Origin: Salipaludibacillus agaradhaerens | GTDB lineage: Bacteria > Bacillota > Bacilli > Bacillales > Salisediminibacteriaceae | DNA: 64,000 nt | Reading direction: 5' to 3' | Assembly (NCBI RefSeq): GCF_002019735.1 | Contig: NZ_KV917378.1 | Span: 3,870,869 to 3,934,868, forward strand | Part shown: in pieces, positions 2,673 through 60,745 of the stretch | Numbering within the stretch: the stretch's first letter is position 1 | Layout: each line of letters opens with the position of its first letter | Program-made: the position numbers and the translations under genes | The notes under the pieces: model-generated | Told to the model about the DNA's origin: nothing | The model's database searches: none | The model's input: only the letters and a program-made list of their open reading frames with translations

Positions 2673-2832
2673 TTTATCTCACTCTAAAGGGGGCAGTAAA
2701 ACCTCCACCTCAAAACTTAAGAAAATCGAAAAAGTTTGGTTGGGGGATAAACTGCGCCTAAAGGTCCGATAAGTTAAACTAACAATCAGTGGGGGATGAA
2801 GGAAAACTCCCACTGATTGAGCTTAGCTTTAT
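2673..2832 (+). repeat. Dispersed intergenic repeat, copy 1 (diverged)
   Basis: This 160 bp copy begins nine bases after the fruA stop. It keeps the family's TTTATC start, a TAAAAC block, and the strong CAATCAGTGGGGG / CTCCCACTGATTG hairpin (2783-2819), and it ends in a CTTTAT block. The middle part is diverged. It lies between the fruA stop and the fruA terminator, so it should be transcribed with the operon. Confidence 0.7.
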
Positions 2833-2843
2833 AAATGAAGTAA

Positions 2844-2884
2844 AGGGTATCCTTAAAAGTCCACTTTTAAGGATACCTTTTTTT
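2844..2884 (+). terminator. Terminator of the fruKA operon
   Basis: A 15 bp perfect stem (GGTATCCTTAAAAGT, a 2-base loop, then its complement) is followed by a run of seven T. It is the Rho-independent terminator for fruA. The U-tract is only on the plus strand. Confidence 0.9.
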
Positions 2885-2930
2885 ATTCCAGATAAACGTC
2901 TGTAAAACTACCTACTCAAAATAGAGAGGT
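2881..2930 (+). repeat. Dispersed intergenic repeat, 5' fragment
   Basis: This is the first third of the repeat family only: CAGATAAACGTCTGTAAAAC followed by CAAAATAGAGAGG. It is directly downstream of the fruA terminator and abuts the end of the HAD hydrolase gene on the other strand. The rest of the element is absent. Confidence 0.6.
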
Positions 2931-2935
2931 GACGG

Positions 2936-3718
2936 TTAGTCTAATTTCTCTAGCAGTGGAAAAAGCTCGCTCAACTCTTTAATCTCATAATTTGGCTGAA
3001 TATGGCTCTTGTCTTTGTTGAAGCGATTAAGCCAAACTGACGTGATCCCAGTTTCATTAGCGCCAAGAATATCCGTGTTCAGATTATCTCCGACCATGAG
3101 AGTGTCGTTAGGAAGAACGTTCATAACCTTTAATGCGTAGTCAAAGATTTCTCTGTCAGGCTTGCCCTTACCAAATTCCCCCGAAATAATAATTTTATCA
3201 AAATAAGGGGCTAATTCAGGTGTAATAGTCAGCTTCGTATTTTGCAACTCTGGAGAACCATTGGTCAACATGAGTAGCTTATATTTTCCTTGTAACTTCT
3301 CTAAAACAGATAACGCATCATCGAACAAAAATGGTACCTTTTTTCTTTCTTCTGGGAACCGTTCACCTAATTCTTTGCCTAACAAAGGGTCATCTACCCC
3401 TAGTTTTTTTAAACCTTGTGTCCAAGCCTCTTGCCGATATGTTGGAACGATCTCTTTCATTTTGTTAAATTGAGGGCCTGGATCATTAAATTGTCCCCAC
3501 AGTCCTTCAAAGGGATTAATCCCAATCATTTTAGTGAAGTTAAATGTGTCATAACGACTGTATAGCTCCTGGGCACTATTTCTGACTGCTTGCTCCAAGG
3601 CTTCTACATCTAAGTCATACTTTGAAGCAGCGTATTGACACGTTAATTCGAAGGCTTTTTTAACACTTTTTTCATCCCATAATAATGTATCGTCCAAGTC
3701 AAAAAAGATAGCTTTCAT
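2936..3718 (-). CDS. HAD-superfamily hydrolase, probable phosphatase
   Basis: Cytoplasmic haloacid-dehalogenase-fold hydrolase, most likely acting on a small phosphorylated metabolite; the substrate cannot be read from sequence. Motif I is DLDDT with nucleophile Asp7 and Asp9, motif II is LTNG (Thr152), motif III is Lys186 in GKGKPD, and motif IV is VGDNLNTD (Asp211, Asp216). The long helical insertion after motif I is a type C1 cap, as in N-acylneuraminate-9-phosphatase-like and YjjG-like enzymes. The length of 260 residues is normal for the family. GGAGG lies about 8 bases before the ATG. It is a single gene on the minus strand, convergent with fruA. Confidence 0.85.
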   Translation of the reverse strand: MKAIFFDLDDTLLWDEKSVKKAFELTCQYAASKYDLDVEALEQAVRNSAQELYSRYDTFNFTKMIGINPFEGLWGQFNDPGPQFNKMKEIVPTYRQEAWTQGLKKLGVDDPLLGKELGERFPEERKKVPFLFDDALSVLEKLQGKYKLLMLTNGSPELQNTKLTITPELAPYFDKIIISGEFGKGKPDREIFDYALKVMNVLPNDTLMVGDNLNTDILGANETGITSVWLNRFNKDKSHIQPNYEIKELSELFPLLEKLD

Positions 3719-3842
3719 CTCAACTTCCTCCAGTCTTATGTACAGATGCCATTAATGAATAGGGTATAGAAAATCCTTCTCTCTGTAAATAGCTGATTAG
3801 TATGAAAATTAAAATCTTTTAGAGATCTTTTGTTAATACTTC

Positions 3843-3874
3843 GTTAAAAATCCCGAAAGCTCAATGCTTCGGGA
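3843..3874 (-). terminator. Terminator of the yitT-family gene
   Basis: On the minus strand TCCCGAAGC pairs with its complement around a short loop and is followed by ATTTTTAA, immediately downstream of the gene ending at 3889. Confidence 0.8.
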
Positions 3875-3888
3875 CTAGACAATCTTGA

Positions 3889-4776
3889 TTATGAAGTTGG
3901 TTTTAGCGGTCGGCGCTGATTATCGAATGTAAACCCTTCACCTGATACTTCTTTTACATCATTGACTGAAAAGAAAGCGTAGGGGTCCACGTCATCAATT
4001 AAATTCTTTAATTGGACCAATTCATTTCGATGAATAACACAATATAGAATTTGACGTTCATCTGCAGTGAAGCTTCCTTTTCCAGTAAGCACGGTGGATC
4101 CTCGGCTCATACGCTCAATGATCACTTGGGATAACTCATCTGCTTTTGATGAAATAATCATGGCAGACTTAGCGGCACTGGCTCCTTCAATAATGAAATC
4201 AATCACTCTACTTGCAACGAATACTGCAACAAGTGTATACATGGCATGGAGTAAAGATAAATGAATAAGGGAGATGATAATGACAACTGCATCAAAACAT
4301 AGCATAAATTTACCAATACTTATACCGAAGTATTTATTTGCCAACCTTGCCAGAATATCTACTCCCCCTGTTGTACCTCCTGCTCTAAAAATCATGCCTA
4401 AACCTGTACCGACAAATACGCCTGCAAAAATGGAAACGAGTATCATATCATCTTGCAGTGGGAGTTGTGTAACAGGGTATAATTCAAAAATTCTTAACGA
4501 AATGGATAATGAGAGAGTTCCAATTAGACTATAAACAAGCATTAATCGTCCAAATAATTTATAGCCGATTAAAAAAAGTGGGATATTAAGTAACAGGTTT
4601 GATAACGACGGCTCGATTTTAAAGAGGTAGTAGAGTAATAGAGTAATACCAGTAAAGCCCCCATGAGCAAGACCGTTTTGTAAATTAAAATGAATAATGC
4701 CAAAACCGAAAATCGTTGTCCCGATAAAAATGATGATAATTGGCCGTAATTTAACCCCTTGAAAAAGACGTGCCAT
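3889..4776 (-). CDS. YitT-family integral membrane protein (DUF161/DUF2179)
   Basis: Membrane protein of the YitT/YpjC/YqfU family, whose molecular function is not established. The first about 200 residues hold five to six hydrophobic segments, with the family's conserved glycine-rich stretch GMIFRAGGTTGGVDILA. The last about 80 residues form the soluble DUF2179 domain (VLTGKGSFT, then FFSVNDVKEVSGEGF). I chose the ATG at 4776 because AAAGGAGGG sits 8 bases upstream; the upstream in-frame ATG at 4818 has no such site. The 295-residue length is typical. It is monocistronic, with its own terminator, and divergent from the next gene. Confidence 0.88.
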   Translation of the reverse strand: MARLFQGVKLRPIIIIFIGTTIFGFGIIHFNLQNGLAHGGFTGITLLLYYLFKIEPSLSNLLLNIPLFLIGYKLFGRLMLVYSLIGTLSLSISLRIFELYPVTQLPLQDDMILVSIFAGVFVGTGLGMIFRAGGTTGGVDILARLANKYFGISIGKFMLCFDAVVIIISLIHLSLLHAMYTLVAVFVASRVIDFIIEGASAAKSAMIISSKADELSQVIIERMSRGSTVLTGKGSFTADERQILYCVIHRNELVQLKNLIDDVDPYAFFSVNDVKEVSGEGFTFDNQRRPLKPTS

Positions 4777-5057
4777 CGTCATTCCCTCCTTTTGTTTTAG
4801 ACCAAAGAAGTATAACATAGCAATGGCGACAGCCCAACAGACTTAAGATGAAAAGATTAAAGTCTTTATATTCAGAAAATAGAAAGTGTTAATAAAAAAT
4901 CAGCTGACTTCTTTTCATGATAATAGAGGTAAAAACAATGATGATATAGATATCTTGTATAGACGGAAACGCATCTGTGAGTTTTGTCTAAAGTTGTCAT
5001 ACTTTGTTTCAGCACGTCTCATTGTTTAGTATAATAAACGTTAGAGGCGGGATAACA

Positions 5058-5690
5058 ATGTTCAAAAAAATGCTAATGAGCATGATATTTATGACGGTTT
5101 TAATCGTTGGAGGTTTATTATTTTATTTTAATTCGACCACAGGGGGGCTGTTTGGAAAAGCAGACTCTAGTAGTCGAGGCGCTTTAGCTAAAACGTTTGA
5201 AGATGACACGTATATGTATTATTTATCGGAAACACAAATTCAGCAAGCGATTACAACAAGTACTACAACAGTAGATTTAATTGAAAATTTTCTTTTAGAA
5301 GAAAAACAAGGTGAGGGCTCAGGTGTTGCTTTTGCATATGTTGAAACACCTTATTTAACAGTTGTAAAAGAAGCTCGTAAAATATATGATTATACTGGTA
5401 GAAGGCCTGTGGTGGAAGAAGTTAAACCAAACTTAATGGATCAATATTTACCGGTGCATGTTCGTTTTTATGAAAATAAGGCTTATATTTATGATGTACA
5501 AATCGGGCAAGATGATGATAGTATCCAGCCTTATAAAGTAGATAATGCAAATGGCGGTACAGCAAAAACCATTTATTTAAATGTAGAAAAGTTGGATTTT
5601 TCGCAACCACTAACGATTACTACTGTAGATAGAATTGATTCATCTCAAATGAGCGTATTTTCTTTAGAATTCGATGAGTATGCTCCATGA
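5058..5690 (+). CDS. Unknown membrane-anchored extracellular protein
   Basis: I do not recognise this 210-residue protein. It starts with a Lys-containing N terminus and one hydrophobic segment (about 5-26, MLMSMIFMTVLIVGGLLFYF), then an acidic soluble domain with no cysteine that should face outward. No catalytic motif is visible. The ATG at 5058 is preceded by GAGGCGGG at a proper distance; the in-frame ATG at 5004 lacks one. A TATAAT box lies at 5030-5035 without a convincing -35 box. It shares a bidirectional terminator with the convergent gene 5752-6504, which is another single-span acidic protein. Confidence 0.7.
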   Translation: MFKKMLMSMIFMTVLIVGGLLFYFNSTTGGLFGKADSSSRGALAKTFEDDTYMYYLSETQIQQAITTSTTTVDLIENFLLEEKQGEGSGVAFAYVETPYLTVVKEARKIYDYTGRRPVVEEVKPNLMDQYLPVHVRFYENKAYIYDVQIGQDDDSIQPYKVDNANGGTAKTIYLNVEKLDFSQPLTITTVDRIDSSQMSVFSLEFDEYAP

Positions 5691-5698
5691 TATTAGAA

Positions 5699-5751
5699 CA
5701 AAACGGCTGAATTCAGCGTAGGTATTACTACGTTGACATTCAGCCGTTTTG
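5699..5751. terminator. Bidirectional terminator between two convergent unknown genes
   Basis: CAAAACGGCTGAA pairs with TTCAGCCGTTTTG around an imperfect inner stem. A- and T-rich arms make it work on both strands, serving the gene ending at 5690 and the one ending at 5752. Confidence 0.85.
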
Positions 5752-6869: not shown

Positions 6870-8522
6870 ATGTGGAAAAACAGATCGATTCAAACAAAAT
6901 TTCTTGCAGGTTTTACATTGGTAGTACTCTTATTTGGTGTTGGATTTATAGGTAGTTTTTATTATTTAAATAATGTAGAAGCAGAAACGCAGCAAATGCA
7001 GGAAAATACAGAGCGTCTAACGGTTATTCAAGAATTAACAACAAATCTTCAGCAACAGTCAATTATACTGACAGAAGGTGGCTCTATAACAGAGCTTCAA
7101 GACTTGCAAGAGATGTTTGCAGAATATCAACAGTCATTTGAAAATCAAGTGACTACAGAGGAACAACGAGAGATATTTGAGACTGCGATGGCAGCCTATA
7201 ATGATTTTTCAACAGAAAGTGAGCGCATGCTTTCAGCAAATAACGAGGTTGATATTCAGCAACAGGGAGCGTTAAGAGATGAGGCTGTAAGTGGGTTAAT
7301 GAGCTTAATCAGTATTTATGATCAGCAAGTTAGCGACTCCTCACAAGCTGTATCCTCTGAAATTAATGTTACAAAAATACTTATGGTTGGTTCTTTAAGT
7401 ATTGCCTTTATCCTTGGTACAGTAGTGTTTGTTATGATCGGCTTAGTTGTTTCCCGTTCTCTAAATAATGTGATTGCTACCCTTACACAAATAAGTGAAG
7501 GGAATTTGCAAGTCGAGATGTTAGATGATCAGTCGAATAACGAGATCGGAAAAATGGCTAAAGCAGTGAATAAAATGGTCACGCAACTGAAGGCTTTGTT
7601 AGGGCAAGTCGATGATATGTCCACACAACTTGCGGCTTCATCGCAACAGTTAACTGCCAGTGTCAATGAGTCAAGTTACGCTTCTGAACAAATTACCTCA
7701 TCCGTTCAAGAGGTTACTGGAGGGGCAGAAAAACAAGCAGAATTCGCTCATGAGAATAAAGATGTTGTTAAAGAGATGTCTGTTAATATTGCTTCATATA
7801 CTGAGCATATACAGAAGGTCAATCAAACATCTGAAACGTCTGTTGTTTCCGCAAAAGAAGGCGAACAGATGATTCAAGATAGTATTGATCAAATGAAGAA
7901 CATCCGTGAAATGACAGATAACATGTCCATGTCTGTGACAAGACTTGCACAGAAATCAAACGAGATAGGGACTATATTAGGAATGATTACGGGTATTGCA
8001 GAACAAACCAATTTGCTAGCCCTTAATGCGGCAATTGAAGCTGCAAGAGCTGGTGAACAAGGTAAAGGTTTTGCCGTTGTAGCAGATGAGGTTAGAAAGT
8101 TAGCAGAACAAACGACGAGTGCGTCTGGTGATGTACAAGGTCTAATTGAAACAATTCAAAACGAAATCGAATCGTCAGCGATGGCCATGACAGAAGGTTA
8201 CATGTCAGTAGAAGACGGAGAGAAAATGGTTAATAATGCAGGAACCGCATTTAATGAGATTTCTGGTGCTATCGGAGCGATGAGAGAACAATTAAGCACC
8301 ATTGCTAGTGGTATGCAAACAATGGAAAGAGACACTGAAAAAATGCTGACAACAGCTGATCAGTCATCTGATTTATCCAAATCCTCAGTAGATGCCATGC
8401 AATCTGTAGCAGCAGCTACTGAAGAACAGCATGCCACACTTGAAGAAATTAATGCCTCTTCAGAACAATTGGCTAACATGTCAGAAAACTTAAGAAAAGC
8501 AGTACAGCAATTTAACCTATAA
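6870..8522 (+). CDS. Methyl-accepting chemotaxis protein
   Basis: Transmembrane chemoreceptor that passes an external signal to CheA/CheW. It has TM1 at about 10-33, a helical extracellular sensor at about 35-168 (short, without a Cache domain), TM2 at about 170-194, HAMP at about 195-250, and a methyl-accepting coiled coil to residue 550. The hairpin tip, around residues 375-415, contains [20 protein letters not shown] and [14 protein letters not shown], the CheA/CheW contact. The ligand is unknown. AAAGGAACC precedes the ATG at the usual distance. It is followed by its own terminator and a second receptor of the same architecture, so the two are probably paralogues but separate transcripts. 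Confidence 0.95.
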
Positions 8523-8749: not shown

Positions 8750-10441
8750 GTGAAATTTTTACATAATGCTACGATGTCTATACGATTAAAAGTGCTAGGT
8801 ACATTTGCATTTACTATTCTTTTACTCATCATAGGGGCTGTTGTCACCTATTTTCAACTGAGTGGGGTTGAACGAGAAATGGATGTGTATGCTGATCAGA
8901 GCGAGAGAGCTGTTATTGCAGCTAATGTTGCTTCATCTATAAGAGGTAAATATATTGCAATCAGTGACTACTACCGTACTGGAGAAGAGGGAAATCTCAC
9001 GAGGTATGATGATTTTTCTGGTCAATTGACTACTGAATTAGCAGCGCTTGAAGGACGGATGTATACTGAAGAATCAAAAGAACTATTTAATTACCTTCAG
9101 GCCCAAATTTTAGAATTCGATGAGAGAGTGGAACGTATTCCTGGTGACTCAGGTCCTCTGCAAAATCAACGATTACAGGAATTGACAGAAACGAGATCAG
9201 CGGTCGTTAATAACGCACTAAATCTTTCTGATGTCATGCTTGAGGAAGCAGAAGCAGCAGAAAAAAGTGTTTATGACATAATTTCGATGAACATCGTTTA
9301 TTTTTCTATAATGGTTCTGATTGTCATTGTTAGCGGAGGAAGTATTTTCTGGTTTGTAACACGTAATCTCTCGAAGAGTTTAAATCAGGTTGTTGGGACA
9401 GCTGAACAACTAAGTAGAGGCAATTTAGCCGTTGAAAAAATTGAGATTAAATCGCAGGATGAAGCAGGGAGAATTGGAGTGGCTATTAATCAAATGATTG
9501 ATAATCTCTCAACAATGATTACGAACGTGCGTAGGACATCTGACCAAGTAGCAGCGAGTTCAGAACAATTATCAGCCAGTTCTACCGAAACAACGAAAGT
9601 AACAGAAGAAATCACGGAATCAATTCAGGAAGTAGCCTCAGGAGCTGATTCACAAGTAGAAAAAGCTGCTGACAATGAACGAACTGTTAATGACATGTCA
9701 AAAAGCATTGACTTAATCGCGTCTAGTATAGAGACCGTAAATGAGTCTTCTAAGGTGTCTGCACAGAAAGCGGAACATGGGACTGATGTCATTTCTTCCA
9801 CCATGTCTCAAATGACATCTATTCACGAGTTGACAGATAAAATAGCCGGATCAGTTAATGGATTAGCTGTCAGTTCTGAAAAAATTGGATCTATTATTTC
9901 TCTGATTACAGATGTTGCGGAACAAACCAATTTATTAGCTTTAAATGCAGCAATTGAAGCTGCACGGGCTGGGGAACATGGCAAAGGATTCGCAGTTGTG
10001 GCAGATGAAGTGAGGAAATTAGCTGAACAAACAGGAAATGCAACGAATGAAATTAGCAGCTTAATAGCCCATATCCAACAGGATATTCAACACTCTGTAT
10101 CCTATACGAAAGAAGGACGCGAAGCAGCTCAAACGGGTATGAGTTATATGGAGGATGCAGGTAGATCTTTCGAAGAACTATCTGAAGCGATACATGGTGT
10201 CTCATCTCAGATGCGAGAAGTAACGGCAGCTGTTGCACAGGTCGAAGAAGGTGTTAACAGGGTCAAATCTTCTGTCGAAGAAACAACATCAATTGCAGAG
10301 CAATCTGCCGGTTACACACAAAATGTTGCTGCGTCAGCAGAGGAGCAGAACGCGTCTATGGAGGAAATTAGTTCATCAGCTGATCAATTGGCGAAAATGG
10401 CAGAGGAATTGCAGGAATCTGTCAGTAAATTTAATTTATAA
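8750..10441 (+). CDS. Methyl-accepting chemotaxis protein
   Basis: Second chemoreceptor, 563 residues. It has TM1 at about 14-36, an extracellular four-helix-type sensor at about 37-176, TM2 at about 178-203 ([20 protein letters not shown]), then HAMP and a long methyl-accepting domain. The tip, near residues 390-425, reads [20 protein letters not shown] and [14 protein letters not shown]. The start is GTG at 8750, with AAAGGG about ten bases upstream. Its sensor differs clearly from that of the preceding receptor while the signalling halves are close, so the ligands probably differ. Both receptors lack an obvious C-terminal CheR-tether pentapeptide. Confidence 0.95.
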
Positions 10442-12445: not shown

Positions 12446-13237
12446 ATGGATTCTCAGGTGGTAGCTAATCGCTATATGCAGTTGCAAAGGGCTCTTTTTA
12501 ACGAGCAGCAATTATTAAAAGAGCAGTTTCTCCCTCATATAAAAAAGATGTTTGGAGATATACCTTTAAATCGAGAAGTCCCAGTCCTTATGCAGCTACC
12601 GCGGCCAATACCTATTGAACTATATAGGGCGTCATTGCAAGCGGTAAGCCACATAATAAGTGATAATGAACCACACATTAAACAAGACATTTATAAGCTT
12701 ATAAATGAACTAAGTGATCAACAGGCTGATCAATGGATTAAGGCAGCGATTAAATATGAGATGACTTACTTTCACGATTTAGCAAAAAAGCAGCACGTAT
12801 CAGACTGGCTCCCTCATTTTCTTGCTGAGCAAGCATTTCGACCCTTTGCGCAAGGCATTGCTCATTTACATGCGTCGATAATGACCGAATTTAATGTCAT
12901 GGGGACATGCCCTTGTTGTGGTGAACCACCGAGACTCGGCAAAGTAACGCGAGATCAAAAGACAAGTTTAGCTTGCCCTAGGTGTGAAACGCAATGGTAC
13001 AAACAACGTTTAGCATGTGTGCATTGCGGTGATGATAAAGAAGAGAATACCTTTCACCTTACGATTAAAGAAGATGAATCTGTGCATATTGAAATTTGTA
13101 GCACGTGCAATAACTATTTAAAGCTAATTGATCGAAGCTCCTATCCTGAAACGATGTCGGCATCGTTATTGGATCTACAAACGATCCATCTTGATTTTGC
13201 CGCACAAGAAGAAGGATTTGGCGATGACAATTATTAA
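12446..13237 (+). CDS. fdhE: Formate dehydrogenase accessory protein FdhE
   Basis: Cytoplasmic chaperone needed for maturation of molybdenum- or tungsten-dependent formate dehydrogenase, thought to act on iron-sulfur or sulfur loading. It has 263 residues. The N-terminal half is helical; the C-terminal half carries the family's four Cys pairs, beginning CPCC at about residue 155, then CPRC, CVHC and CSTC, a rubredoxin-like metal site. I chose the ATG at 12446 (six bases after a GGGGGG site) over the ATG at 12440, which abuts that site. The 3' end overlaps mobA by 14 bases. No formate dehydrogenase gene is in the window. Confidence 0.9.
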   Translation: MDSQVVANRYMQLQRALFNEQQLLKEQFLPHIKKMFGDIPLNREVPVLMQLPRPIPIELYRASLQAVSHIISDNEPHIKQDIYKLINELSDQQADQWIKAAIKYEMTYFHDLAKKQHVSDWLPHFLAEQAFRPFAQGIAHLHASIMTEFNVMGTCPCCGEPPRLGKVTRDQKTSLACPRCETQWYKQRLACVHCGDDKEENTFHLTIKEDESVHIEICSTCNNYLKLIDRSSYPETMSASLLDLQTIHLDFAAQEEGFGDDNY

Positions 13238-18018: not shown

Positions 18019-18503
18019 ATGATTAAGAAATTCTCATTATTGTTAGCTTGTTTGACTTTAGTTTTTTTAGGAGTAGGGACCTTTGATTCTGTAGAGAAGC
18101 AGGTCCTGCTCCTCCATTAACTTATATGAATATTGATGCGATCACATCTGATGGTGGTGGATTCGAATGGCACTATCCTGATCAAGAGTATATGAGTACA
18201 GGTTATACAGCTAGCGGAAGTGAGATTTATATTGTGACATATGTTGAAGGTTATACTTCAGGTATATACCCAATGATATTTGTGGATGGAGAGAATGTTA
18301 CAGATCAAACTTATAGAACAAGAGAAAAACAATACCTTTCTGGGTCAGATAATATTATTTACGGTTATTTAGACTATAGAACTATACCGTTAGAATTGTT
18401 TGAAGGTCAGGAACAAGGAGTTATAACACTATTTGCTAGAGATTTGACAAGTCCATTAAATACATTGTCAGTAACTAGAAGTTTCAACATAGATTGGAAT
18501 TAA
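18019..18503 (+). pseudogene. Frameshifted gene for a secreted protein of unknown function
   Basis: A start with a good site (GGAGATGGAG, then ATG at 18019) opens a signal peptide, MIKKFSLLLACLTLVFLGVG, but the frame stops at 18118-18120. The next open frame (to 18503) has no ribosome binding site of its own and reads back in frame as AGPAPPLTYMNIDA from about 18099. Restoring one A in GAGAAGC (18094-18100) joins them as VEKAGPAPPLTYMNID, a natural signal-peptide cleavage region. The restored protein is about 160 residues, secreted, acidic and cysteine-poor, with beta-type sequence; I do not recognise it. It may be a true pseudogene or a sequencing error. Confidence 0.7.
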
Positions 18504-18528
18504 TTAACATGATACAAGGAGGAACTTT

Positions 18529-18861
18529 ATGAAGCTATACGAGAAACATCCAGCAGCTTGGGTAGCCTTTACAAATATGACCGTTTTAGCTAGACATAAC
18601 GCTAAAAGAGAAGGTCTAGCAATCTCCGAAAATAATAAATCAATGGGATTTGAGGAATTTTTAAACATGATGGAACAAGAAGAGGTAGTTAATCCTAACC
18701 TCTCTAGAGAAGTTGATAAATTTCAGAAACAAAGTAAAGACTTACAGATTAGAATGGGAAGTAACTATACCATTCAAAATGAAGCATTTAACTATGTTGA
18801 AAAAGCATATGAGTTAGGTATTATAGATCCGAATGGTATGTTGCATAAAGGAAAGGCGTAG
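18529..18861 (+). CDS. Small protein of unknown function
   Basis: A 110-residue cytoplasmic protein without membrane segments or cysteines, rich in helix-forming and charged residues (FEEFLNMMEQEEVV, EVDKFQKQSKDLQIRMG). I recognise no domain. AAGGAGG stands 8 bases before the ATG, so it is very likely translated. It follows the frameshifted secreted-protein gene by 25 bases, with no terminator between, and has its own terminator after it, so the two probably form one unit. Pairing of a secreted protein and a small soluble protein would fit several roles; none can be shown. Confidence 0.7.
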   Translation: MKLYEKHPAAWVAFTNMTVLARHNAKREGLAISENNKSMGFEEFLNMMEQEEVVNPNLSREVDKFQKQSKDLQIRMGSNYTIQNEAFNYVEKAYELGIIDPNGMLHKGKA

Positions 18862-18898: not shown

Positions 18899-19604
18899 AT
18901 ATATGGATAGAGACATACTCAGCCTTGATAATAGAGGAGGATTAAGGAAAAAGCGACTGCTATTAAGATATTGTAAGTAAATAGGAATGTTTTACATGTA
19001 TTCGTAAACTTTTAAGAGAGTTAAAGCGTCTTAGTATTAAGTTCGCAAAACTTTCGTTTAGATAGTCATTCAACAGCATGTGAGCCTTTATTTTTCACTT
19101 ATAGTTTTATGAGGCGTTAGTTGAATAAATGTCACGATTGAATTTTCACCACGAACAAGCGAACGATGATAAATGGTCTATATCACATGTTCGTAAAAAA
19201 GGGCTACAGAGTTGGTGACTCATCAGCGACGTCTGCAAAATCAATGATGCGAAAGGTGTTATCACAGACAACCGTCTGTCTGAGGGAAGGTGACATACAT
19301 TAGTCGGTTTTTGACATTTTATTTTGATTTATGACATTCATTCATTTATAAAAGTATTTTATCAACATATTAATTAAGGGAATTTTTTGTTATCTTTAAC
19401 CGCTTTTTTGTCAGATAGCCTGCTCGATTTTTTTAAGATTTATCCTCACTCAATTCGCGTATGGATAATCCTTAGGCGTTAATCAACTTGTGAATATTTG
19501 TTGTAAGTAGCTATTTTTTTCAAAAAAGAATTGGAAGCTAAACAGAATGCTATCTCAATATAAAATATTAAGTTTGATTTCACTTTGAAATAAGGAGAGA
19601 TTTT
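18899..19604. other. Long AT-rich gap in accessory stretch
   Basis: About 700 bases without a supported gene. It holds a 20-base fragment of the dispersed repeat (19270-19289), runs of T and A, and no open frame with a ribosome binding site until 19605. It could be decayed coding sequence, but I cannot recognise any remnant. Confidence 0.5.
19270..19289 (+). repeat. Short fragment of the dispersed repeat
   Basis: TATCACAGACAACCGTCTGT matches the first 20 bases of the family with two changes. No downstream part of the element follows. Confidence 0.4.
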
Positions 19605-34293: not shown

Positions 34294-34469
34294 CTCTTAT
34301 CCTGAGTAGGCGGAGGGACAGGCCCAACGAAGCCCAGCAACCATCACTAAGGCAAAATGTGAACGGTGCTAACCTGCAAGGCATACGCTATCATACGGTG
34401 TCTTGACCGATAAGAGGTGAAAGGCGAATGGATTCAAACCTTTTCCTCTAGTCAGGGAAAGGTTTTTTA
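34294..34469 (+). ncRNA. SAM-I riboswitch (S-box) controlling metK
   Basis: The aptamer runs from CTCTTATC (34294) to its pairing partner GATAAGAG (34409-34416). It has the conserved S-box cores GAGGGACAGGCCC, GAAGCCCAGCAACC, GTGCTAA and CTGCAAGG in order. The expression platform is the terminator 34436-34469: AAACCTTTTCC, loop, GGGAAAGGTTT, T-run. High S-adenosylmethionine stabilises the aptamer and stops transcription before metK. The promoter and terminator spacing leave no doubt about the function. Confidence 0.97.
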
Positions 34470-36734: not shown

Positions 36735-37529
36735 ATGTGGAGATGGGAAGCAAAGTCAAAAGAGGCTAAAGGGGTATTTGTTGTTGTTCACGGAGCTGGA
36801 GAATATCATGTGCGTTACAAGTGGATTACTGAGCGGTTAAATGAATTTGGGTTTCATGTTATACTCGGGGACTTACCTGGCCAAGGGACAACGGAAGGGA
36901 GAAAAGGTCACGTAAAAAGCTTCAATGACTACATAAAAGCTGTATCAGGCTGGCTTAATGAAGCTAAAAAGTATGGTTTACCTGTGATTTTATTAGGCCA
37001 TAGTATGGGAGGCCTTATATCAACTCGCACGCTAATGGAGATGCGAGAAGAAAAGCTCCCTCAAATGGTGATTTTGTCATCACCTTGCTTTGGATTATTT
37101 AATAAAACGCCGATAAACAAAAAGATACTTTCATTGGCATTGAATAGAGTGACACCTGGTTTGAGGTTTCCGTCAGGTCTTGAAACAGGATCAGGTACGC
37201 GCGACCCGTTAATGCGGGAACGAGATGCCACCGATCATTTGTTAATCAAAAAAGTTAGTGTCAGATGGTATAGAGAATTAGATAAAGCGATGAAAATAGC
37301 TCATGACAATACAGAACGCTTTCCAGAACTACCGCTACTTGTGATGCAAGGTGGCGATGACCGAATTGTTGATAAATTTAAAGTGAAAGAATGGTTTAAT
37401 CAAGTGGATTTAAAGGATAAATATTATAAAGAATGGGAAGGACTGTACCATGAAGTGTTAAACGAACCGGAAAAAAATCACGTGCTGGCTCATATGCTCG
37501 GTTTCGTTACGATGAATCTTCATAATTAA
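36735..37529 (+). CDS. ytpA: Alpha/beta hydrolase, lysophospholipase YtpA
   Basis: Serine hydrolase of the monoacylglycerol lipase/lysophospholipase family. In B. subtilis YtpA is linked to making the lysophospholipid antibiotic bacilysocin. The 264-residue protein has the nucleophile Ser90 in GHSMGG, an oxyanion HGAGE at 19-23, catalytic Asp near 208-209 (GGDDRIVD) and His239 in YHEV. No signal peptide is seen. I chose the ATG at 36735 (MWRWEAK), matching the B. subtilis N terminus; the frame from 36672 has no ribosome binding site. ytpB follows after 35 bases, as in B. subtilis. Confidence 0.88.
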   Translation: MWRWEAKSKEAKGVFVVVHGAGEYHVRYKWITERLNEFGFHVILGDLPGQGTTEGRKGHVKSFNDYIKAVSGWLNEAKKYGLPVILLGHSMGGLISTRTLMEMREEKLPQMVILSSPCFGLFNKTPINKKILSLALNRVTPGLRFPSGLETGSGTRDPLMRERDATDHLLIKKVSVRWYRELDKAMKIAHDNTERFPELPLLVMQGGDDRIVDKFKVKEWFNQVDLKDKYYKEWEGLYHEVLNEPEKNHVLAHMLGFVTMNLHN

Positions 37530-39320: not shown

Positions 39321-40285
39321 AACGCAATCCCCTTTTGACTACCGTCAGTAGAGAAGTATTTTCCTTGCCAACTGTTACGTTCTTTCATTTCTTTATCGAT
39401 CCCATTTAGCACTTCCCACTTATTTAAACTCCACATCGGTCCGATCATTAAATCTGCAGGACCATCTCCTGTTAAGCGGTGAACAATCATTGAAGGAGGA
39501 AGGACTTCTAACTGATCACAGACGAGCTTAATATAAGTCTCTTTATCCATTAAGTCCAGCATCCCTTTTTCATATTGTTTAACCATTGGCGTCCTTTTTA
39601 ATAAGTGGAGTAAATGTATTTTAATCCCTTGGACATCTAGTTTAGCCACTTCTTTAGCCGTTTGAAGCATCATGGCATTCGTCTCCAATGGCAAGCCGTT
39701 AATTATATGAGAGCATACGCGAATACCATGCTTGCGAAGCTTTTTTACACCTTCAACATAACATTGAAAATCATGAGCGCGGTTAATAAGTTCTCCTGTT
39801 TGATCATGGGCCGTTTGCAAACCTAACTCCACCCATAAATAAGTGCGCTTATTCAGTTCTGCCAAGTACGCAACTACATCATCTGGTAAACAGTCAGGAC
39901 GTGTGGCGATGGAGAGACCGATCACATCTTCCTGCTTTAAAATGACCTCATACATGTCACGAAGCTCCTCTACGGGGGCATACGTATTTGTATAGGCTTG
40001 AAAATAACCGATATATTTTCCCGAGCGCCATTTTTTATGAAGTTTGTCTTTAATCGTATGAAACTGTGTGACTAAATCATCACGTCTGTCGCCGGCAAAG
40101 TCGCCAGAGCCTCGCTCACTACAAAATGTACAGCCACCGTAAGCAACATTTCCATCCCGATTAGGACAGTCAAATCCCCCGTCTAAAGGGACTTTAAATA
40201 TTTTTTCACCAAATTGCTGTTTCAAATGATAATTCCATGTGAGATAGCGCTTATCTCCGAAAAGATGCGCTTGTTCGTTAGTCAT
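39317..40285 (-). CDS. ytqA: Radical SAM protein YtqA (TIGR01212 family, MnmL)
   Basis: Radical S-adenosylmethionine enzyme, 322 residues. Its 4Fe-4S cysteines are Cys40, Cys52 and Cys55 in DCPNRDGNVAYGGCTFCSER, the long-spaced pattern of the YtqA/YhcC family. SIATRPDCLPDDVV and VELGLQTAHD are typical downstream motifs. YtqA has been proposed (as MnmL) to convert the cmnm5 side chain of tRNA uridine 34 to nm5, the step before YtqB; that is literature inference. It overlaps ytqB by four bases. The best site, AAAGG, is rather far from the ATG. A dispersed repeat begins 22 bases upstream of this start. Confidence 0.9.
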   Translation of the reverse strand: MTNEQAHLFGDKRYLTWNYHLKQQFGEKIFKVPLDGGFDCPNRDGNVAYGGCTFCSERGSGDFAGDRRDDLVTQFHTIKDKLHKKWRSGKYIGYFQAYTNTYAPVEELRDMYEVILKQEDVIGLSIATRPDCLPDDVVAYLAELNKRTYLWVELGLQTAHDQTGELINRAHDFQCYVEGVKKLRKHGIRVCSHIINGLPLETNAMMLQTAKEVAKLDVQGIKIHLLHLLKRTPMVKQYEKGMLDLMDKETYIKLVCDQLEVLPPSMIVHRLTGDGPADLMIGPMWSLNKWEVLNGIDKEMKERNSWQGKYFSTDGSQKGIAL

Positions 40286-40306: not shown

Positions 40307-40450
40307 TTTATCACAGGTAACTGTCCATAAAGCGTCGGCGTCAAAATAGAGAGGAGAGGTATCCTTATTTTGCCGGGGCTACCGGACGCTAAGGTCCTGA
40401 TTAACTTAATCTTCAATTAGTGGGATCACTGATTGAAGATTCGTTTTATG
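40307..40450 (+). repeat. Dispersed intergenic repeat, copy 2
   Basis: This 144 bp copy starts TTTATCACAGGTAACTGTCC and ends CGTTTTATG. It has the stem CAAAATA / TATTTTG, the hairpin GGACGCTAAGGTCC, and a terminal hairpin AATCTTCAAT / ATTGAAGATT that differs from the other copies but still pairs. Its last bases overlap the ltaE stop codon (40446-40448). Confidence 0.8.
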
Positions 40451-41553: not shown

Positions 41554-41712
41554 TTTGATCACAGATAACCGTTCGTAAACGTCCTAGGTCAAAATAGAAA
41601 GGAGAGCTAACTCTATTTAGGCGGGAGCTAACGGCCGCTAATGTCCTGATTCACGCCACTACCAATCAGTGGAGAGGAACGGAAACTTCCACTCATTGAA
41701 GGTTCATTTTGT
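41554..41712 (+). repeat. Dispersed intergenic repeat, copy 3
   Basis: Near full-length copy between the divergent ltaE and yttB genes. It keeps GATCACAGATAACCG, AAAATAGA / TCTATTT, GGCCGCTAATGTCC and CAATCAGTGGAG / CTTCCACTCATTG, with some stem mismatches. It fills most of the 311-base gap, so both promoters must lie at its edges or inside it. Confidence 0.8.
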
Positions 41713-43089: not shown

Positions 43090-43366
43090 TAATGACGATA
43101 AATGAATGTGAAAAAAATGTAGAAAAGGATTAGTAATGAAGTAACCTTGATACAGAGAGTTAACGGTCGGTGAAAGTTAACCATGGTTGTTCATGAACTC
43201 ACCTTGGAGTTGCAAAGGGGAAATCATTTACCCTTTGTCGTGTGACTGGCGTTAACGGTATAGAGTGAGTGCTTATGAAATTAGCGCTAAACGTGGGTGG
43301 TACCGCGGGAAGGATGATTATCAGCCTCTCGTCCCTAGTCATAACTAGTGACGGGAGGCTTTTTGC
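43090..43366 (+). ncRNA. T-box leader of leuS
   Basis: This is a tRNA-sensing leader. The conserved T-box sequence GTGGGTGGTACCGCGG is at 43293-43308. The terminator is GCCTCTCGTC / GACGGGAGGC followed by TTTTT (43323-43366). Stem I lies roughly at 43125-43200, and a likely specifier codon CTC (leucine) stands at 43198-43200 in GAACTCACC. Uncharged tRNA-Leu with anticodon GAG would stabilise the antiterminator and allow leuS transcription. Confidence 0.95.
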
Positions 43367-45955: not shown

Positions 45956-46092
45956 CATAAAATGAATCTTTAATTAATGGTCCCAATGATTGATAGTTGT
46001 GTTAATGAGGACATTAGCGTCCGTTCCCCCCTAAATAGATTTATCTTTCCTATCTATTTTTGACGTGAGCGTTTTATGGATGGTTAGATAAA
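45956..46092 (-). repeat. Dispersed intergenic repeat, copy 4 (inverted)
   Basis: This is the only full copy on the minus strand. Read in the repeat's direction it gives TTTATCTAACCATCCATAAAACG, AAATAGAT / ATCTATTT, ACGGACGCTAATGTCC and a CATAAAATG-type end. Its last hairpin is decayed (CAATCATTGGGA). It sits between the convergent leuS and ytfP genes. Confidence 0.8.
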
Positions 46093-49392: not shown

Positions 49393-49794
49393 ATGCTCAA
49401 GAAATTAGCGATCACCACAGGCTCACGAGATGAGATGAAGGATATGACGGAAGAGGTGCAGCAAGTCGTTAATGAGAGTGGTGTCCAATCCGGGGTTGTA
49501 TACATTTACTGTGCTCATACAACAGCAGGAATTACAATTAATGAGAATGCAGACCCAGATGTGAAACATGATATGCTCATGCGCTGGGATGAGGTTTATC
49601 CATGGCATCATGATAAGTATCGGCACGTAGAAGGGAATACTGCGGCTCATTTAAAAGCAAGTACGACAGGGGCTTCGCAAATGGTCATCATTGAAAATAG
49701 CAAACTCATTTTAGGCACGTGGCAAGGTATTTATTTTTGCGAATTTGATGGCCCCCGACAGCGACACGCCTATGTAAAAGTTATCGAAGGCTAA
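49393..49794 (+). CDS. YjbQ/UPF0047 family protein
   Basis: Small conserved protein of the YjbQ family (YugU in B. subtilis), 133 residues. Some members show weak thiamine-phosphate-synthase-like activity, but the physiological role is unknown. Metal-ligand-like conserved stretches are visible: [33 protein letters not shown] and [17 protein letters not shown] chose the ATG at 49393; the GTG at 49381 in the same frame would add only four residues (MKRE). It follows the pyrroline-5-carboxylate reductase gene closely and is followed by a terminator. Confidence 0.88.
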
Positions 49795-49835
49795 TTAATT
49801 AAAAGAGCGCAATGAAGTCTCTTATTACAACGTTA

Positions 49836-50104: not shown

Positions 50105-50264
50105 TTTATCACAGATAAACGTCCGTAAAACTCCGGCTTCAAAATAGAGAGTAGAGCTATCTCTATTTAGGCAGGAGATAACGGACGCTAATGTCCTGAT
50201 TAACTCAACTAACAATCAGTGGGAGAAGAACGAAAACTCCCACTGATTGAAGGTTCGTTTTATA
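50105..50264 (+). repeat. Dispersed intergenic repeat, copy 5
   Basis: One of the two best copies (160 bp). TTTATCACAGATAAACGTCC begins it. Then come AAATAGAGA / TCTCTATTT, ACGGACGCTAATGTCCTGATT, the perfect hairpin CAATCAGTGGGAG / CTCCCACTGATTG (50213-50249) and the GGTTCGTTTTAT end. Outer pairing TAAAAC / GTTTTA closes the element. Confidence 0.88.
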
Positions 50265-52637: not shown

Positions 52638-52797
52638 TTTATCACAGATAACCGTCCGTAAAACGCCCGCGTCAAAATAGAGAGGAGAGATAAATCTATT
52701 TAGGTGGGAGGTAACGGACGCTAATGTCCTGATTCACTCAACTAACAATCAGTGGGAGAAGAACGTAAACTCCCACTGATTGAAGGTTCGTTTTATG
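52638..52797 (+). repeat. Dispersed intergenic repeat, copy 6
   Basis: The best-preserved copy (160 bp). TTTATCACAGATAACCGTCC begins it, then TAAAACG (pairing with the CGTTTTA end), AAATAGA / TCTATTT, ACGGACGCTAATGTCCTGATT, the perfect hairpin CAATCAGTGGGAG / CTCCCACTGATTG, and GGTTCGTTTTATG. It lies between the hxlR-type gene and the shared operator region, in opposite orientation to that gene. Confidence 0.9.
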
Positions 52798-57174: not shown

Positions 57175-57176
57175 AA

Positions 57177-57212
57177 AAAGCTAGGAGATATTATCTCCTA
57201 GCTCGTTCTTTT
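57177..57212. terminator. Bidirectional terminator between ytzG and ytzE
   Basis: AGCTAGGAGA pairs with TCTCCTAGCT around a 5-base loop. On the minus strand it is followed by TTTTTTTATTC, a strong signal; on the plus strand by CGTTCTTTT. Confidence 0.88.
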
Positions 57213-57371
57213 AAAAGCAAGATGTCTTATTTGCAACGTCTTTTATCATATATTTGTTCCGACTTTCCACAGGAGTCACCATCATTCGTTCCAAGTCGCA
57301 AACATTTTATTATTAATTTCAAATGTTTTTCGTTATATTGAGCGTGCCATTGTACTATGACGTTCATTCAA

Positions 57372-57590: not shown

Positions 57591-57971
57591 AAAACCACTC
57601 CTTATTAATGGTCACCTGTTTGTAATAGAAAAAGTGCGAATGCAAGGCGACTTTTTTTAAGACATTAAATTAAAGGGACAGATCAATGAATGTTAATTAT
57701 CAGAATACAAACGTCTCGGATAGTGAGATTGCCGAGTGAACGGTAAAGCCATTCTGTCAGAAGGTGTGAGAGACTTACACATGGTAAGGTATTAATGTTA
57801 GTCTATACGCCCCTCCTTTCTATAGTTTAACGCAGAAAAGGGTCACAAGTAAAGAAAGACTCATTTTTAAAGGAAAGAAGACTATGTCTTTATACTTATT
57901 CATTGGAAGTCTTTTCTAACACATGATAAAGTCGTATACTTATAAATATCGCTTTAAATGGAGGTTTAGAC
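57591..57971. other. Gap between ytzE and pepV
   Basis: About 380 bases between divergent genes. A weak promoter for pepV may be TATACT (57935-57940), but no good -35 box is seen. An imperfect hairpin AAAGAAGACT / AAGTCTTTTC (57881-57917) precedes it. No gene is seen. Confidence 0.4.
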
Positions 57972-59387
57972 GTGAAAAATTGGAAACAAGAGGTAGAAAA
58001 GCGGCAAGACGAACTAATTCAAAGTACATGTGAATTCCTGAAAATACCAAGTATGTATGATTCGGCGTCTGTGACTACGGAGGCACCGTTCGGTGAGGGG
58101 ATTGCGAAAGCTTATAACTGGTTATTAAATAAAGCCCAAAAAGAAGGCTTTCGAATTAAAGATTTGAGCGGTAAAGCAGGTCACATTGAGTGGGGGCAAG
58201 GGGACGAGGTAATTGGTGTTTTATGCCATATTGATGTTGTTCCAGGAGGAGAAGGATGGACAACGCCAGCTTTTTCAGCTGATATTAGAGATAATCATAT
58301 TTATGCAAGAGGGGCTCTTGACGATAAAGGGCCGACAATGGCTTCCTATTATGCGTTGAAGCTAATAAAGGAACTTAATATTCCGTTGAAAAAACGAATA
58401 AGGCTGATCATTGGGACGGATGAAGAAAGAGAATGGCAGTGTGTAAAGCATTATTTTAAGTACGAAACAATGCCGGATATTGGATTCGTACCAGATGCTG
58501 ACTTTCCAGTAATATGTGCAGAAAAAGGGATCGCTGATTTTCTTTTTTACAAAAAAGCGATTATAAGCGATGGCTTGGTTATGTCTTTCTCAGCAGGCAC
58601 ACGTTTTAATATGGTCCCAGATAAAGCTGTTGTGACGCTTAATCGTAAACGAATAAAGGACTTAGATCTCCTTAAGCAAGTGTTTACTGTTTTTTTGAGC
58701 GAAGAAGACTTAACAGGTAAGTGGGAAATGGATGAAGCTCGTGTTGTATTAACCTTCAACGGTCTTGCTGCTCATGGAAGCACACCAGAAGAAGGACGAA
58801 ATGCGGCATTAGCTGGGGCTGCTTTCTTAACAAAAATCTCGTTGAGAAAAGAGGAAAAAACGTTTTTCCAATTTCTAAATCAATTGTTTTATAACGATTA
58901 TCTTGGAGAAAGACTCGGTATTTCTTACACTGATGAAGAGCTAGGAGCGGTCACGATAAATATAGGAACTTTATCGTATGAAAGGGATAAAGGGATACGC
59001 GTAGGGATTAATTTACGTTATCCAAGTGGGGCTGACTATCAAACAATAATGAAGAATTTAATTAAAGCATTTGATACGATTGATATGGACACAGAAGTTG
59101 TCAGCCATCAAGAACCGCATGGTGTAAGAAAAGATCATCCCCTCATTAAAGTTCTCTCTGATGTTTATAAACGTCATACTGGTGAGAGTAGAGAGCCCAT
59201 TGCGATTGGCGGTGGCACTTATGCGAGAGCTTTACGAGCGGGAGTTGCTTTTGGTCCACTCTTTCCTGGGCAGCCGGATGTGATTCATCAACCAGATGAA
59301 TATATTACGATCGATCATCTCATTAAATTAACAGCGATTTATGCAGATGCTATGTCTATATTGGCAAGTAATGAACTTAAAGAATAA
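57972..59387 (+). CDS. pepV: Dipeptidase PepV (M20 metallopeptidase)
   Basis: Cytoplasmic zinc dipeptidase of the M20A family, 471 residues, that releases amino acids from dipeptides. The metal ligands are His86 in CHIDVVPGGEGW (with catalytic Asp88), the bridging Asp in ARGALDDKGP, the Glu pair in IGTDEEREW (catalytic Glu then metal Glu) and a later His in FPGQPDVIHQPDE. A lid domain lies between. The start is GTG at 57972, about 9 bases after GGAGG. It is followed after 24 bases by an MFS transporter gene and may be co-transcribed. Confidence 0.92.
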   Translation: MKNWKQEVEKRQDELIQSTCEFLKIPSMYDSASVTTEAPFGEGIAKAYNWLLNKAQKEGFRIKDLSGKAGHIEWGQGDEVIGVLCHIDVVPGGEGWTTPAFSADIRDNHIYARGALDDKGPTMASYYALKLIKELNIPLKKRIRLIIGTDEEREWQCVKHYFKYETMPDIGFVPDADFPVICAEKGIADFLFYKKAIISDGLVMSFSAGTRFNMVPDKAVVTLNRKRIKDLDLLKQVFTVFLSEEDLTGKWEMDEARVVLTFNGLAAHGSTPEEGRNAALAGAAFLTKISLRKEEKTFFQFLNQLFYNDYLGERLGISYTDEELGAVTINIGTLSYERDKGIRVGINLRYPSGADYQTIMKNLIKAFDTIDMDTEVVSHQEPHGVRKDHPLIKVLSDVYKRHTGESREPIAIGGGTYARALRAGVAFGPLFPGQPDVIHQPDEYITIDHLIKLTAIYADAMSILASNELKE

Positions 59388-59411
59388 GGGGAAACAGAGG
59401 TTAACATACTA

Positions 59412-60566
59412 ATGAATAAACGGACATTTTTAAACATGAAGGCATTTTATTTCTTTTCTTTTTTTGCAATAGGTGGACTCTTTCCGTTACTTACGGTTTA
59501 TTTAAATGATGTGGGGTTAACAGGAGCCCAAATTGGGGTGATAACGTCAATCGGCCCGATTGTTATGCTGCTTTCGCAACCCATTTGGGGAATACTAAGT
59601 GATTATACGAAGAAGCCACGAGTATTATTAACGATTGCAGTAATTGGAACAGGGATTATTGGATTCACCTATTTATTTGCTGAAGACTATGTTATATTCG
59701 TCACCATTGCAGCAGGTTTGGCCCTGTTTCAAAGTGCCATTGTCCCCTTATCGGATAGTATGACGATGAATTATGTGTCTCTCCATGGGGGGAATTACGG
59801 AAAAATTCGTATGTGGGGGGCAGTAGGGTTTGCTTTAGCTGTTTGGATTATGGGAAATTTATCTGACTGGTTTGGTCAACCTGTTATTTTCTATGGATTT
59901 GCTATCGTATTATTTATGAGTGCGTTTTTTTCTATTAAAATGCCGAATGGGACTGTCACCGCAGCGATTGATTTACGTGGTGGGATGAAACAACTTATCA
60001 AGGTACCAGGGTTTTTATTATTTCTACTTATCACCTTTCTAGTTTTCGGGCCTATTATGGCGAATAATTTTTATTTTGGCTTACTTATTCAGTTTACGGG
60101 AGGCACTTTGGCAGGTGTTGGTTTTGCGTTTTTATTGGCAGCTGGAAGCGAAGTGCCATTCATGCACTGGGCAGGAAATTGGATTAAAAAAAGAGGCGTT
60201 TTAGTCATTTTATTTGTGGCGTCATGTGTTTCTGGTTTAAGATGGTTATTTTACGCAGCAGGTCCTTCTCCGTTGTTCATTTATGTGACAACAATTATAC
60301 AAGGGTTCAGCATTGGACTATTTGTACCTGCCGCATTGCAATACGTGATAGATATTGCGCCAAAACAAGTCAGAGGGACAGCTGTTGCTGTTTATTCAGC
60401 TGCCGGAAACGGTCTTGGTGCTTGCTTTTTTAGTATTAGTGCGGGGCTTATTATGGATAGGTACACCATACTGTCTGTGTATATGTTTTATGGTACGCTA
60501 TCCCTCGTTGGGGCGGGCCTAACTTTATGGCTAATTAATAAGCAAAGGACAGTGAAGGTGGTATAA
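59412..60566 (+). CDS. MFS transporter (LacY/nucleoside symporter-like group)
   Basis: Twelve-span membrane transporter, 384 residues, of the MFS_1-like group that includes LacY, phenylpropionate and nucleoside proton symporters and B. subtilis YwbF. The loop 2-3 motif QPIWGILSDYTKKPR is visible, and KIRMWGAVGFALAVWIMG is typical of the group. The substrate cannot be inferred. Closeness to the dipeptidase gene (24 bases) may hint at a peptide- or amino-acid-related role, but this is weak. Confidence 0.82.
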   Translation: MNKRTFLNMKAFYFFSFFAIGGLFPLLTVYLNDVGLTGAQIGVITSIGPIVMLLSQPIWGILSDYTKKPRVLLTIAVIGTGIIGFTYLFAEDYVIFVTIAAGLALFQSAIVPLSDSMTMNYVSLHGGNYGKIRMWGAVGFALAVWIMGNLSDWFGQPVIFYGFAIVLFMSAFFSIKMPNGTVTAAIDLRGGMKQLIKVPGFLLFLLITFLVFGPIMANNFYFGLLIQFTGGTLAGVGFAFLLAAGSEVPFMHWAGNWIKKRGVLVILFVASCVSGLRWLFYAAGPSPLFIYVTTIIQGFSIGLFVPAALQYVIDIAPKQVRGTAVAVYSAAGNGLGACFFSISAGLIMDRYTILSVYMFYGTLSLVGAGLTLWLINKQRTVKVV

Positions 60567-60585
60567 TTCAGAAGAATAAAGCGGC

Positions 60586-60745
60586 TTTATTACGGATAAC
60601 CAGTTTGTAAAACGCCCGTCTCACAATAGAGGGGAAAGATAAACCTATATAGGCGCGAGGATAACGGACACTCATGTCCGATTCACCAACTATCAATCAG
60701 TGGGAAAAGAACGAAAACGCCCCCTGATTGAAGGGGCGCTTTATG
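60586..60745 (+). repeat. Dispersed intergenic repeat, copy 7
   Basis: A 160 bp copy between the convergent MFS and cysK-type genes. TTTATTACGGATAACC begins it. It has GGACACTCATGTCC with CGGACA / TGTCCG pairing, and CAATCAGTGGG / CCCCCTGATTG. The outer pairing is lengthened to TAAAACGCCC / GGGCGCTTTA with one mismatch. The open frame 60700-61020 runs through its end and is not a gene. Confidence 0.82.

Follow-up and report, generated by a model that had tools for sequence, protein, structure and literature searches.

The window examined here, a 64,000-nt stretch of the Salipaludibacillus agaradhaerens genome (contig NZ_KV917378.1, positions 3,870,869 to 3,934,868), carries a family of intergenic repeats with a consensus length of 158–159 nt. 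On balance, we regard the repeat as a transposable element that is non-autonomous and travels in the form of single-stranded DNA. The reading draws on empty sites in related species, Watson-Crick-only co-changes in two hairpin domains and a strand orientation that follows replication. A preliminary description of the window, made from its letters alone, had likened the repeat to the bcr elements of Bacillus cereus and suggested a non-coding element mobilised in trans. The empty sites, the TTTAT ends, the many dispersed copies and the absence of an open reading frame (ORF) support that view.

Empty sites and orientation

We refer to the source genome, a single contig of 4,319,439 bp, as G000 and to two congeneric species as G004 and G006. 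Searches of the genome with single copies gave at least 43 and at least 49 matches (40 of 194 and 40 of 456 candidates scored). Since these searches scored just part of the candidates, an even sample was taken, namely 60 stretches of 20 kb, one every 72 kb, less L093, which lies inside the window, plus the window itself (1,244,000 bp). Profile models of two subfamilies (B, built from 30 copies, and A, built from 7; cut-off E ≤ 1e-3) identified 136 non-redundant copies in the sample, 121 of B and 15 of A, or by proportion about 472 per genome. Further copies outside the window, which the preliminary description had proposed to look for, are clearly present. Of the sample copies, 76 are full (≥125 bp) and 60 partial, and many of the latter look, by reading, like hairpin losses between short direct repeats. 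Just two of the 136 overlap an ORF call (simple calls of ≥90 aa) by more than 30 bp, though the coding fraction of the sample is 0.78; the placement outside genes that was described earlier holds.

Intact copies have TTTAT at the start and at the end, and neighbouring units of tandem arrays share one motif. The final G of the end motif given in the preliminary description, GGTTCGTTTTATG, belongs to the flank and not to the element. In the G000 and G006 samples, the left pentamer is TTTAT in 131 of 179 copies and the right pentamer in 126 of 168. Where both ends were read (n = 122), TTTAT is found twice in 71 copies; the left alone is changed in 22, the right alone in 14, and both in 15. Outside the pentamers, no base is more frequent than 44% at any of 20 positions per side. 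A head-to-tail array of six units, mostly near-identical and with an altered shared motif, TATAT, lies at C1:1671514-1672431 (L062:15514-16431); this layout suggests amplification following insertion.

The synteny block around the leucyl-tRNA synthetase gene (Pfam) was compared in five congeneric species. With a cut-off of E ≤ 1e-4, G000 and G004 have 8 copies each in this block and G006 has 20; the pieces from G001, G005 and G007 have none. Eight of these 36 copies, picked mainly for small gaps, were displayed; they cover seven sites, five of them filled versus empty, one tandem versus single, and one unreadable. The five empty sites keep a single pentamer or near-pentamer, as follows. The G006 copies at 37364–37522 (subfamily A) and 18440–18598 face empty sites in G004 that read ...GCAGCTG TTTAT CCATTTATT... 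and ...TTTCAA TTTAT AATTTAATAG..., respectively. The site of the G006 copy at 39459–39618 is empty in both G000 and G004, where the target is TTCAT, and that of the G004 copy at 49667–49829 is empty in G000, with a target one base short of TTTAT. The site of the window copy at 60586 is occupied in both G000 and G006; in G004 it is empty, with TTTTC as the single pentamer. By reading, unusual bases are common to the G000 and G006 copies. The absence from G004 is probably a precise loss, and independent insertion in G000 and G006 may be considered as well.

Because empty sites in relatives keep one pentamer, the element is mobile. In the readable cases, the element sits where there had been a single TTTAT or a near form of it; this makes the left pentamer the target and the right one the end of the element, with nothing further duplicated. 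Insertion on the 3′ side of a motif of 4–5 nt, a single copy of which stands in the empty site, is seen at all five of these sites; the motif is TTTAT in two of them and altered or truncated in the other three.

The origin and terminus of G000 were placed at about 2.86 Mb and 0.58 Mb of the contig, where the GC skew changes sign; one stretch at 2.95 Mb is near zero. Copies lie along the leading strand in 113 of 136 cases in the G000 sample (genes, 791 of 1040) and in 88 of 97 in a 400-kb sample of G006 (genes, 232 of 303). Without five extra tandem-array units, the G000 figure is still 108 of 131. Between convergent or divergent genes, copies with and against replication stand at 50:10 in G000 and 34:5 in G006, and between leading-strand gene pairs at 45:12 and 42:4. 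Between lagging-strand gene pairs the ratios are 12:0 and 8:0; that is, 20 of 20 copies follow replication and oppose both genes. Intergenic TTTAT has no matching bias (1,092 leading and 1,189 lagging in G000, or 47.9% leading), and set against it, the orientation bias has p = 1.7e-17 in G000 and, using the G000 TTTAT figure, 3.2e-19 in G006. Transcription does not account for the orientation of the copies, which follows replication instead. A top strand reading as the leading strand, as in most copies, is the template of the lagging strand.

A miniature inverted-repeat transposable element (MITE) moved as double-stranded DNA by a DDE transposase is unlikely. It would make a strict TTTAT target duplication and owe its orientation bias to a transposase contacting the replication fork. 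A five-base duplication would give the same picture in empty sites, insertion sequence families that touch the beta clamp are described as replication-oriented in PMC5371812, and the term MITE or MITE-like is applied to bcr1 in PMC3446304 and PMC3733652. However, terminal inverted repeats are not seen when the ends are compared by eye (TTTATCACAGATAACC versus ATAAAACGAACCTTCA). Among the 15 copies with both pentamers changed, just four have matching pentamers, and these four are, we infer, inner units of one tandem array; beyond that array, no target duplications with matching changes were seen. Nor would an element of this kind need hairpins that are conserved and covary at its two ends. The MITE offered in the preliminary description is, in its classical form, not supported.

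The hairpin domains

The copy at 52638–52796 folds into two hairpins, the left one long and interrupted by internal loops, with fold z-scores of −4.96 for the top strand as RNA, −3.51 for the bottom strand as RNA and −5.25 as DNA. The preliminary description had instead read three hairpins from the window, enclosed by an outer pairing of TAAAACG with CGTTTTA. This outer pairing was ruled out, as it shows no gain over shuffles in the superfamily alignment (71.3% of cells paired versus 70.9%).

RNAalifold on 30 copies of this genome (alignment A1) gave six pairs only, which counts against structure. The covariance model R1, derived from RNAalifold on own-genome copies, was dropped as poor, and a structure of 36 pairs set by hand was tested instead on alignment A2 of 39 superfamily members. 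A2 consists of 41 superfamily rows, less seven (an extra L195 unit, L186, L248, L140, L142, L149 and L153), plus five own copies. Pairing in A2 reaches 94.7% of cells versus 87.4% in shuffles, a figure that removal of divergent rows may flatter, the rows left out being near-identical, badly trimmed or divergent. Co-changes are found at 16 of the 36 pairs and in 85 cells, versus 21.3 in shuffles and 9–13 in slid controls. Covariation therefore clearly exceeds the controls across the superfamily, which it does not do on own-genome copies alone. Of 1390 cells, 1293 are Watson-Crick, 23 G·U and 38 A·C. Because there is strong covariation without a G·U preference across 39 relatives, the data point to two hairpin domains kept as DNA rather than RNA. 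The trinucleotide TAA stands at the left foot in 37 of the 39 members, at the right foot in 36 and at both feet in 35.

A folded single-strand site might also be the substrate of a site-specific recombinase, of the tyrosine type or another, by analogy with integron attC, with TTTAT as the crossover core. Judged by the insertion sites, we consider this quite unlikely: the lagging-strand and hairpin features would suit such a site, but insertion is dispersed at TTTAT, with no longer core.

Spread through RNA copying, in the manner of a short interspersed element (SINE), by an RNA-mediated element or regulatory RNA inserted at forks by a reverse transcriptase, appears highly improbable. Across the 39 relatives G·U does not exceed A·C. 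Within copies, the G·U to A·C counts are 165:131, 61:47 and, pooling A and B copies, 93:97 (p = 0.52, 0.12 and 0.88); that is, they track the rates at unpaired sites, whereas 13 tRNAs, picked by a program that demands pairing, gave 27 G·U and no A·C. The 20 copies that oppose both neighbouring genes also argue against it. Set against these points, the top strand has the stronger fold of the two when treated as RNA, and an uncorrected count on 130 B rows leans to G·U (237 versus 169) with two T·G-consensus pairs excluded, which themselves stay T·G in most copies. Fork-primed retro-insertion, as in group II introns, would likewise give sense orientation on the lagging-strand template. For 18 bcr families, figures in PMC3446304 place 84 of 165 and 62 of 155 copies within mRNA in two strains. 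The structured RNA of the preliminary description, as the entity under selection, is nevertheless not supported, given the lack of G·U preference at the superfamily level and an orientation that tracks replication rather than transcription.

Least probable of all, though it may hold for single copies, is that placement and orientation are kept by selection (for termination, mRNA stability or fork function), with mobility minor. Intergenic, hairpin-rich copies would suit this, but full copies have mostly drifted apart (among 52 B copies of G000, the median identity to the nearest copy is 0.82), sites differ among close relatives, and orientation tracks replication where neighbour genes do not. 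A rise of copy density towards the terminus was looked for in the genome sample and not seen, the last bin, on the terminus side, having 5.5 copies per 100 kb and the region near the origin 10.5.

The copies in the window are collected in Table 1. The seven elements of the preliminary description (2673, 40307, 41554, 45956 inverted, 50105, 52638 and 60586) are all real, with ends refined by profile model and reading. Of its two fragments, that at 2881 is recovered by the model, and that at 19270 is not. All window copies other than that at 2673 belong to subfamily B, and the copy at 45957–46092 is the sole one opposing the direction of replication.

Table 1. Copies and fragments of the repeat in the 64,000-nt window
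Feature	Position	Strand	Observations
Full copy, subfamily A	2673–2832	+	TTTAT at both ends; subfamily marked by TTTATCCCACACTTAAGGGGCAGT...
Left-end fragment, subfamily B	2882–2977	+	Profile model positions 1–91, 34 bits
Possible left-end fragment	19259–19279	+	By eye alone; without model match at E ≤ 1e-3
Full copy, subfamily B	40307–40449	+	Loop of right hairpin shortened
Full copy, subfamily B	41555–41712	+	Left pentamer TTGAT, right TTTGT; model match 41555–41710, right end by reading
Copy, subfamily B	45957–46092	−	Left end a few bases short, placed by reading; model match 45957–46086; right hairpin short
Full copy, subfamily B	50105–50263	+	Model match
Full copy, subfamily B	52638–52796	+	Top-scoring B copy of the sample; copy used for folding
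Full copy, subfamily B	60586–60744	+	Shared with G006; G004 site empty, single pentamer

At the gathering score, Rfam gives no match on any repeat copy of the window. It gives only a T-box leader (43111–43339, at the start of the leucyl-tRNA synthetase gene) and a SAM riboswitch (34294–34416). A separate 130-bp direct repeat (7984–8113 and 9903–10032, 82% alike) lies within two neighbouring long ORFs, which are probably paralogous genes.

Proposed mode of movement

We propose that movement as single-stranded DNA would proceed as follows. In the wake of the replication fork, while the top strand is exposed as single-stranded DNA, an enzyme acting in trans would bind both hairpins and cut after each TTTAT. 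The cut may be placed by base contacts with the TAA at both hairpin feet, a trinucleotide complementary to the TTA of TTTAT. The released element would then be re-inserted into the lagging-strand template, on the 3′ side of a further TTTAT exposed there, and the right TTTAT of a copy could serve as a target again, giving rise to head-to-tail arrays.

From its anatomy and placement, the element appears to work like IS200/IS605, that is, by single-strand, hairpin-guided insertion on the lagging strand, for which PMC6006769 and PMC5371812 provide the precedent. REP/RAYT transposition follows a like logic. The element and IS200/IS605 have in common hairpins near both ends (here seen by covariation), insertion 3′ of a short motif without other duplication, a similar right-end motif and lagging-strand orientation. 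In contrast to IS200/IS605, no Y1 TnpA and no TnpB were found in G000, and no autonomous element with the same ends in the loci examined. As neither a cognate Y1 transposase nor such an autonomous element was found, the element is not filed as a member of that family. Non-autonomous derivatives of IS200/IS605 are known as PATEs.

Several observations weigh against movement as single-stranded DNA, above all those on the enzyme. The Y1 transposase domain (PF01797) is absent from G000 even at E ≤ 10. At E ≤ 1e-3 there is none in the carriers G004, G322, G342, G170 and G559, and relaxing the cut-off to E ≤ 10 adds weak pieces only, in G004 (E = 0.36) and G170 (E = 0.12). Among 40 hand-picked genomes, Y1 occurs in 16 of 20 carriers and in 12 of 20 genomes without a match to the superfamily consensus, which is no clear link, and within the genus all five non-carriers have it. 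In 20 Y1 loci, the element was met in L119 alone, adjoining the insertion sequence. TnpB (PF07282) was found in two of seven carriers tested (G019 and G101) and not in G000, G004, G006, G322 or G342. Y1 transposase, RAYT and TnpB were thus not found as present-day partners in G000. The IS200 of G006 was ruled out as the parent element because its ends are unrelated. Nor was a long version with the same ends found in the loci examined: of seven left-right pairs 300–5000 nt apart, six are 332–388 nt long, and one of 3.7 kb spans two separate copies. 

The proposed anatomy has weak points of the same bearing. The left TAA foot is not clean, since the A beside the stem could itself pair (columns 19–97, where all 39 members have A-T) and 25 of the 39 keep the C-G that follows this A. 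Under the guide-pairing rule of IS608, the pairing between TTTAT and TAA would be only partial. The left hairpin is far larger than the 20–25 nt that PMC6006769 gives for IS608-type ends. Left and right pentamers decay about equally (the 22 left-only and 14 right-only changes above), and decay alone cannot tell target from element end; an orientation bias is also described, as cited above, for other insertion sequence families that touch the beta clamp. The remaining concern of the preliminary description was that the copies might be decayed ends of a known insertion sequence; none was recognised, either by Rfam over the window copies or in the ends of the G006 IS200.

Relatives, known systems and nested RNA modules

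In its own genus, the element is carried by three of eight species (G000, G004 and G006). In the order, 59 of 397 genomes, spanning 40 of 135 genera, match the B consensus at E ≤ 1e-3 (two candidates scored per genome). In the class, the superfamily consensus finds matches in 38 of 398 genomes; these represent 24 of 146 genera, and some belong to families beyond the order. The two genome draws overlap. A right-end pattern occurs in at least 120 stretches of named genomes. Among the matches listed (80 stretches) are Niallia, Sporosarcina, Oceanobacillus, Lysinibacillus, Evansella, Peribacillus and others, together with one Paenibacillus and one Modestobacter contig. The other hosts listed are nearly all what we take, by family, to be relatives of Bacillus. 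The 80 loci listed hold 87 right ends, 25 of which pass a filter as simple complete elements.

In G006, 97 copies in 400 kb of a 4.53-Mb genome extrapolate to about 1,100 copies per genome. Identity to the nearest non-tandem copy in G000 reaches 0.918 for B (n = 52) and stands at 0.90 for A (n = 8); in the G006 sample it reaches 0.969 for A (median 0.95, n = 32) and stands at 0.83 for B (n = 16). No identical dispersed copies were found in either sample. Judged by these identities, the element is old in G000 and younger in G006.

In plasmid records, a window copy found no match, the L152 copy matched one and the L218 copy five, and none of the plasmids matched by the latter two is from the B. 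cereus group; the L152 copy had no match in phages. Three stray occurrences may be noted. A right-end match of 85% at CP079755.1 221561-221623 (L342), adjoining a CPBP-protease gene, lies on a plasmid recorded as Klebsiella grimontii pNY3A; the host is odd, and a Bacillus relative was perhaps the donor or became mixed in. In a genome of another family, a stretch (G189:C147:49643-49746, L136) agrees at 95% with positions 1–105 of the B consensus of this genus, which would point to a recent transfer or a stray contig. The superfamily mini-copy on NZ_JAPVBI010000007.1 (L229), a 4.6-kb contig labelled Modestobacter, is probably contamination.

In B. cereus, small repeats linked to TTTAT were recognised about 20 years ago. 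The bcr1 papers of 2004 and 2011 reportedly describe TTTAT at both ends and common partial copies, and we know of no mover for bcr1. It is the closest known system, likened here by description (size, motif and placement) and not by sequence. A table of PMC2267715 gives bcr1 as 147 or 167 bp, and PMC6542083 ties it to the TTTAT motif. With bcr1–bcr3 (group A), the present element shares a similar size, TTTAT, intergenic location, structure, a MITE-like character and a mostly chromosomal occurrence. Against a bcr1-type length of about 150–165 bp with TTTAT at each end, it has 158–159 nt; of 122 copies, 71 carry the motif twice and 36 more carry it once. It too is dispersed and intergenic, with full and partial copies. 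A passage of PMC6542083 states that bcr1 is specific to the B. cereus group and not seen in other species; the present element, by contrast, occurs in another genus and has relatives in many, although that restriction is a statement in print and not a mechanistic one. Beyond the description of bcr1, replication orientation and DNA-type covariation were tested for the present element. A search of the literature on bcr-like repeats, with most subscription papers outside its reach, found no description of this family among the papers listed, and sequence strings matched unrelated work only.

With repetitive extragenic palindromic (REP) elements and the related BIMEs, proposed in PMC2817692 to be non-autonomous elements, the repeat shares high copy number, intergenic location and palindromic structure. 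Membership of REP as defined is not borne out, since its foot is TAA and not GT[AG]G, its length is about 160 nt versus the 21–65 nt given in PMC6006769, and no Y1 gene was found in G000 or linked to the copies.

Some copies contain the Rfam Bacillaceae-1 RNA (RF01690). In eight loci, six of them chosen because the module was visible, there are 12 matches, and 10 of these reach or exceed the gathering score. Of 13 loci picked by RF01690 alone, six lie, by reading, within superfamily elements, and RF01690 is present in 59 of 120 relatives. The modules lie between the two hairpin domains or in the loop of the right hairpin. They are in sense orientation in L293 and L296 and antisense in L299–L302 and L061, the latter being the own-genome case (L061:12852-12918, opposite strand, inside the copy at 12807-13022). 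To our knowledge, Bacillaceae-1 RNA has no established function. It is a separate module of 67 nt, has a row in Table 1 of PMC2864571, and occurs outside superfamily elements too. For example, a match at L304:1501-1567 lies, by reading, just upstream of a 16S rRNA gene and outside any superfamily element seen.

A wider proposal may be considered, though it is speculative and probably not right in full. The repeats would form a superfamily of single-stranded DNA transposons across the Bacilli, moved by a nuclease outside the known Y1 and TnpB enzymes. This would give a mechanism for bcr1, as the B. cereus branch, and the superfamily would have carried Bacillaceae-1 modules around genomes.

The nested modules supply a mobile-DNA context for the Bacillaceae-1 RNA. 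An anatomy similar to that of the B. cereus TTTAT repeats is now found in many genera, together with the three marks of single-strand, replication-coupled insertion named at the outset. The question of how such repeats move thereby becomes directly testable, by way of the enzyme that binds the hairpins and of whether the TAA foot selects TTTAT.

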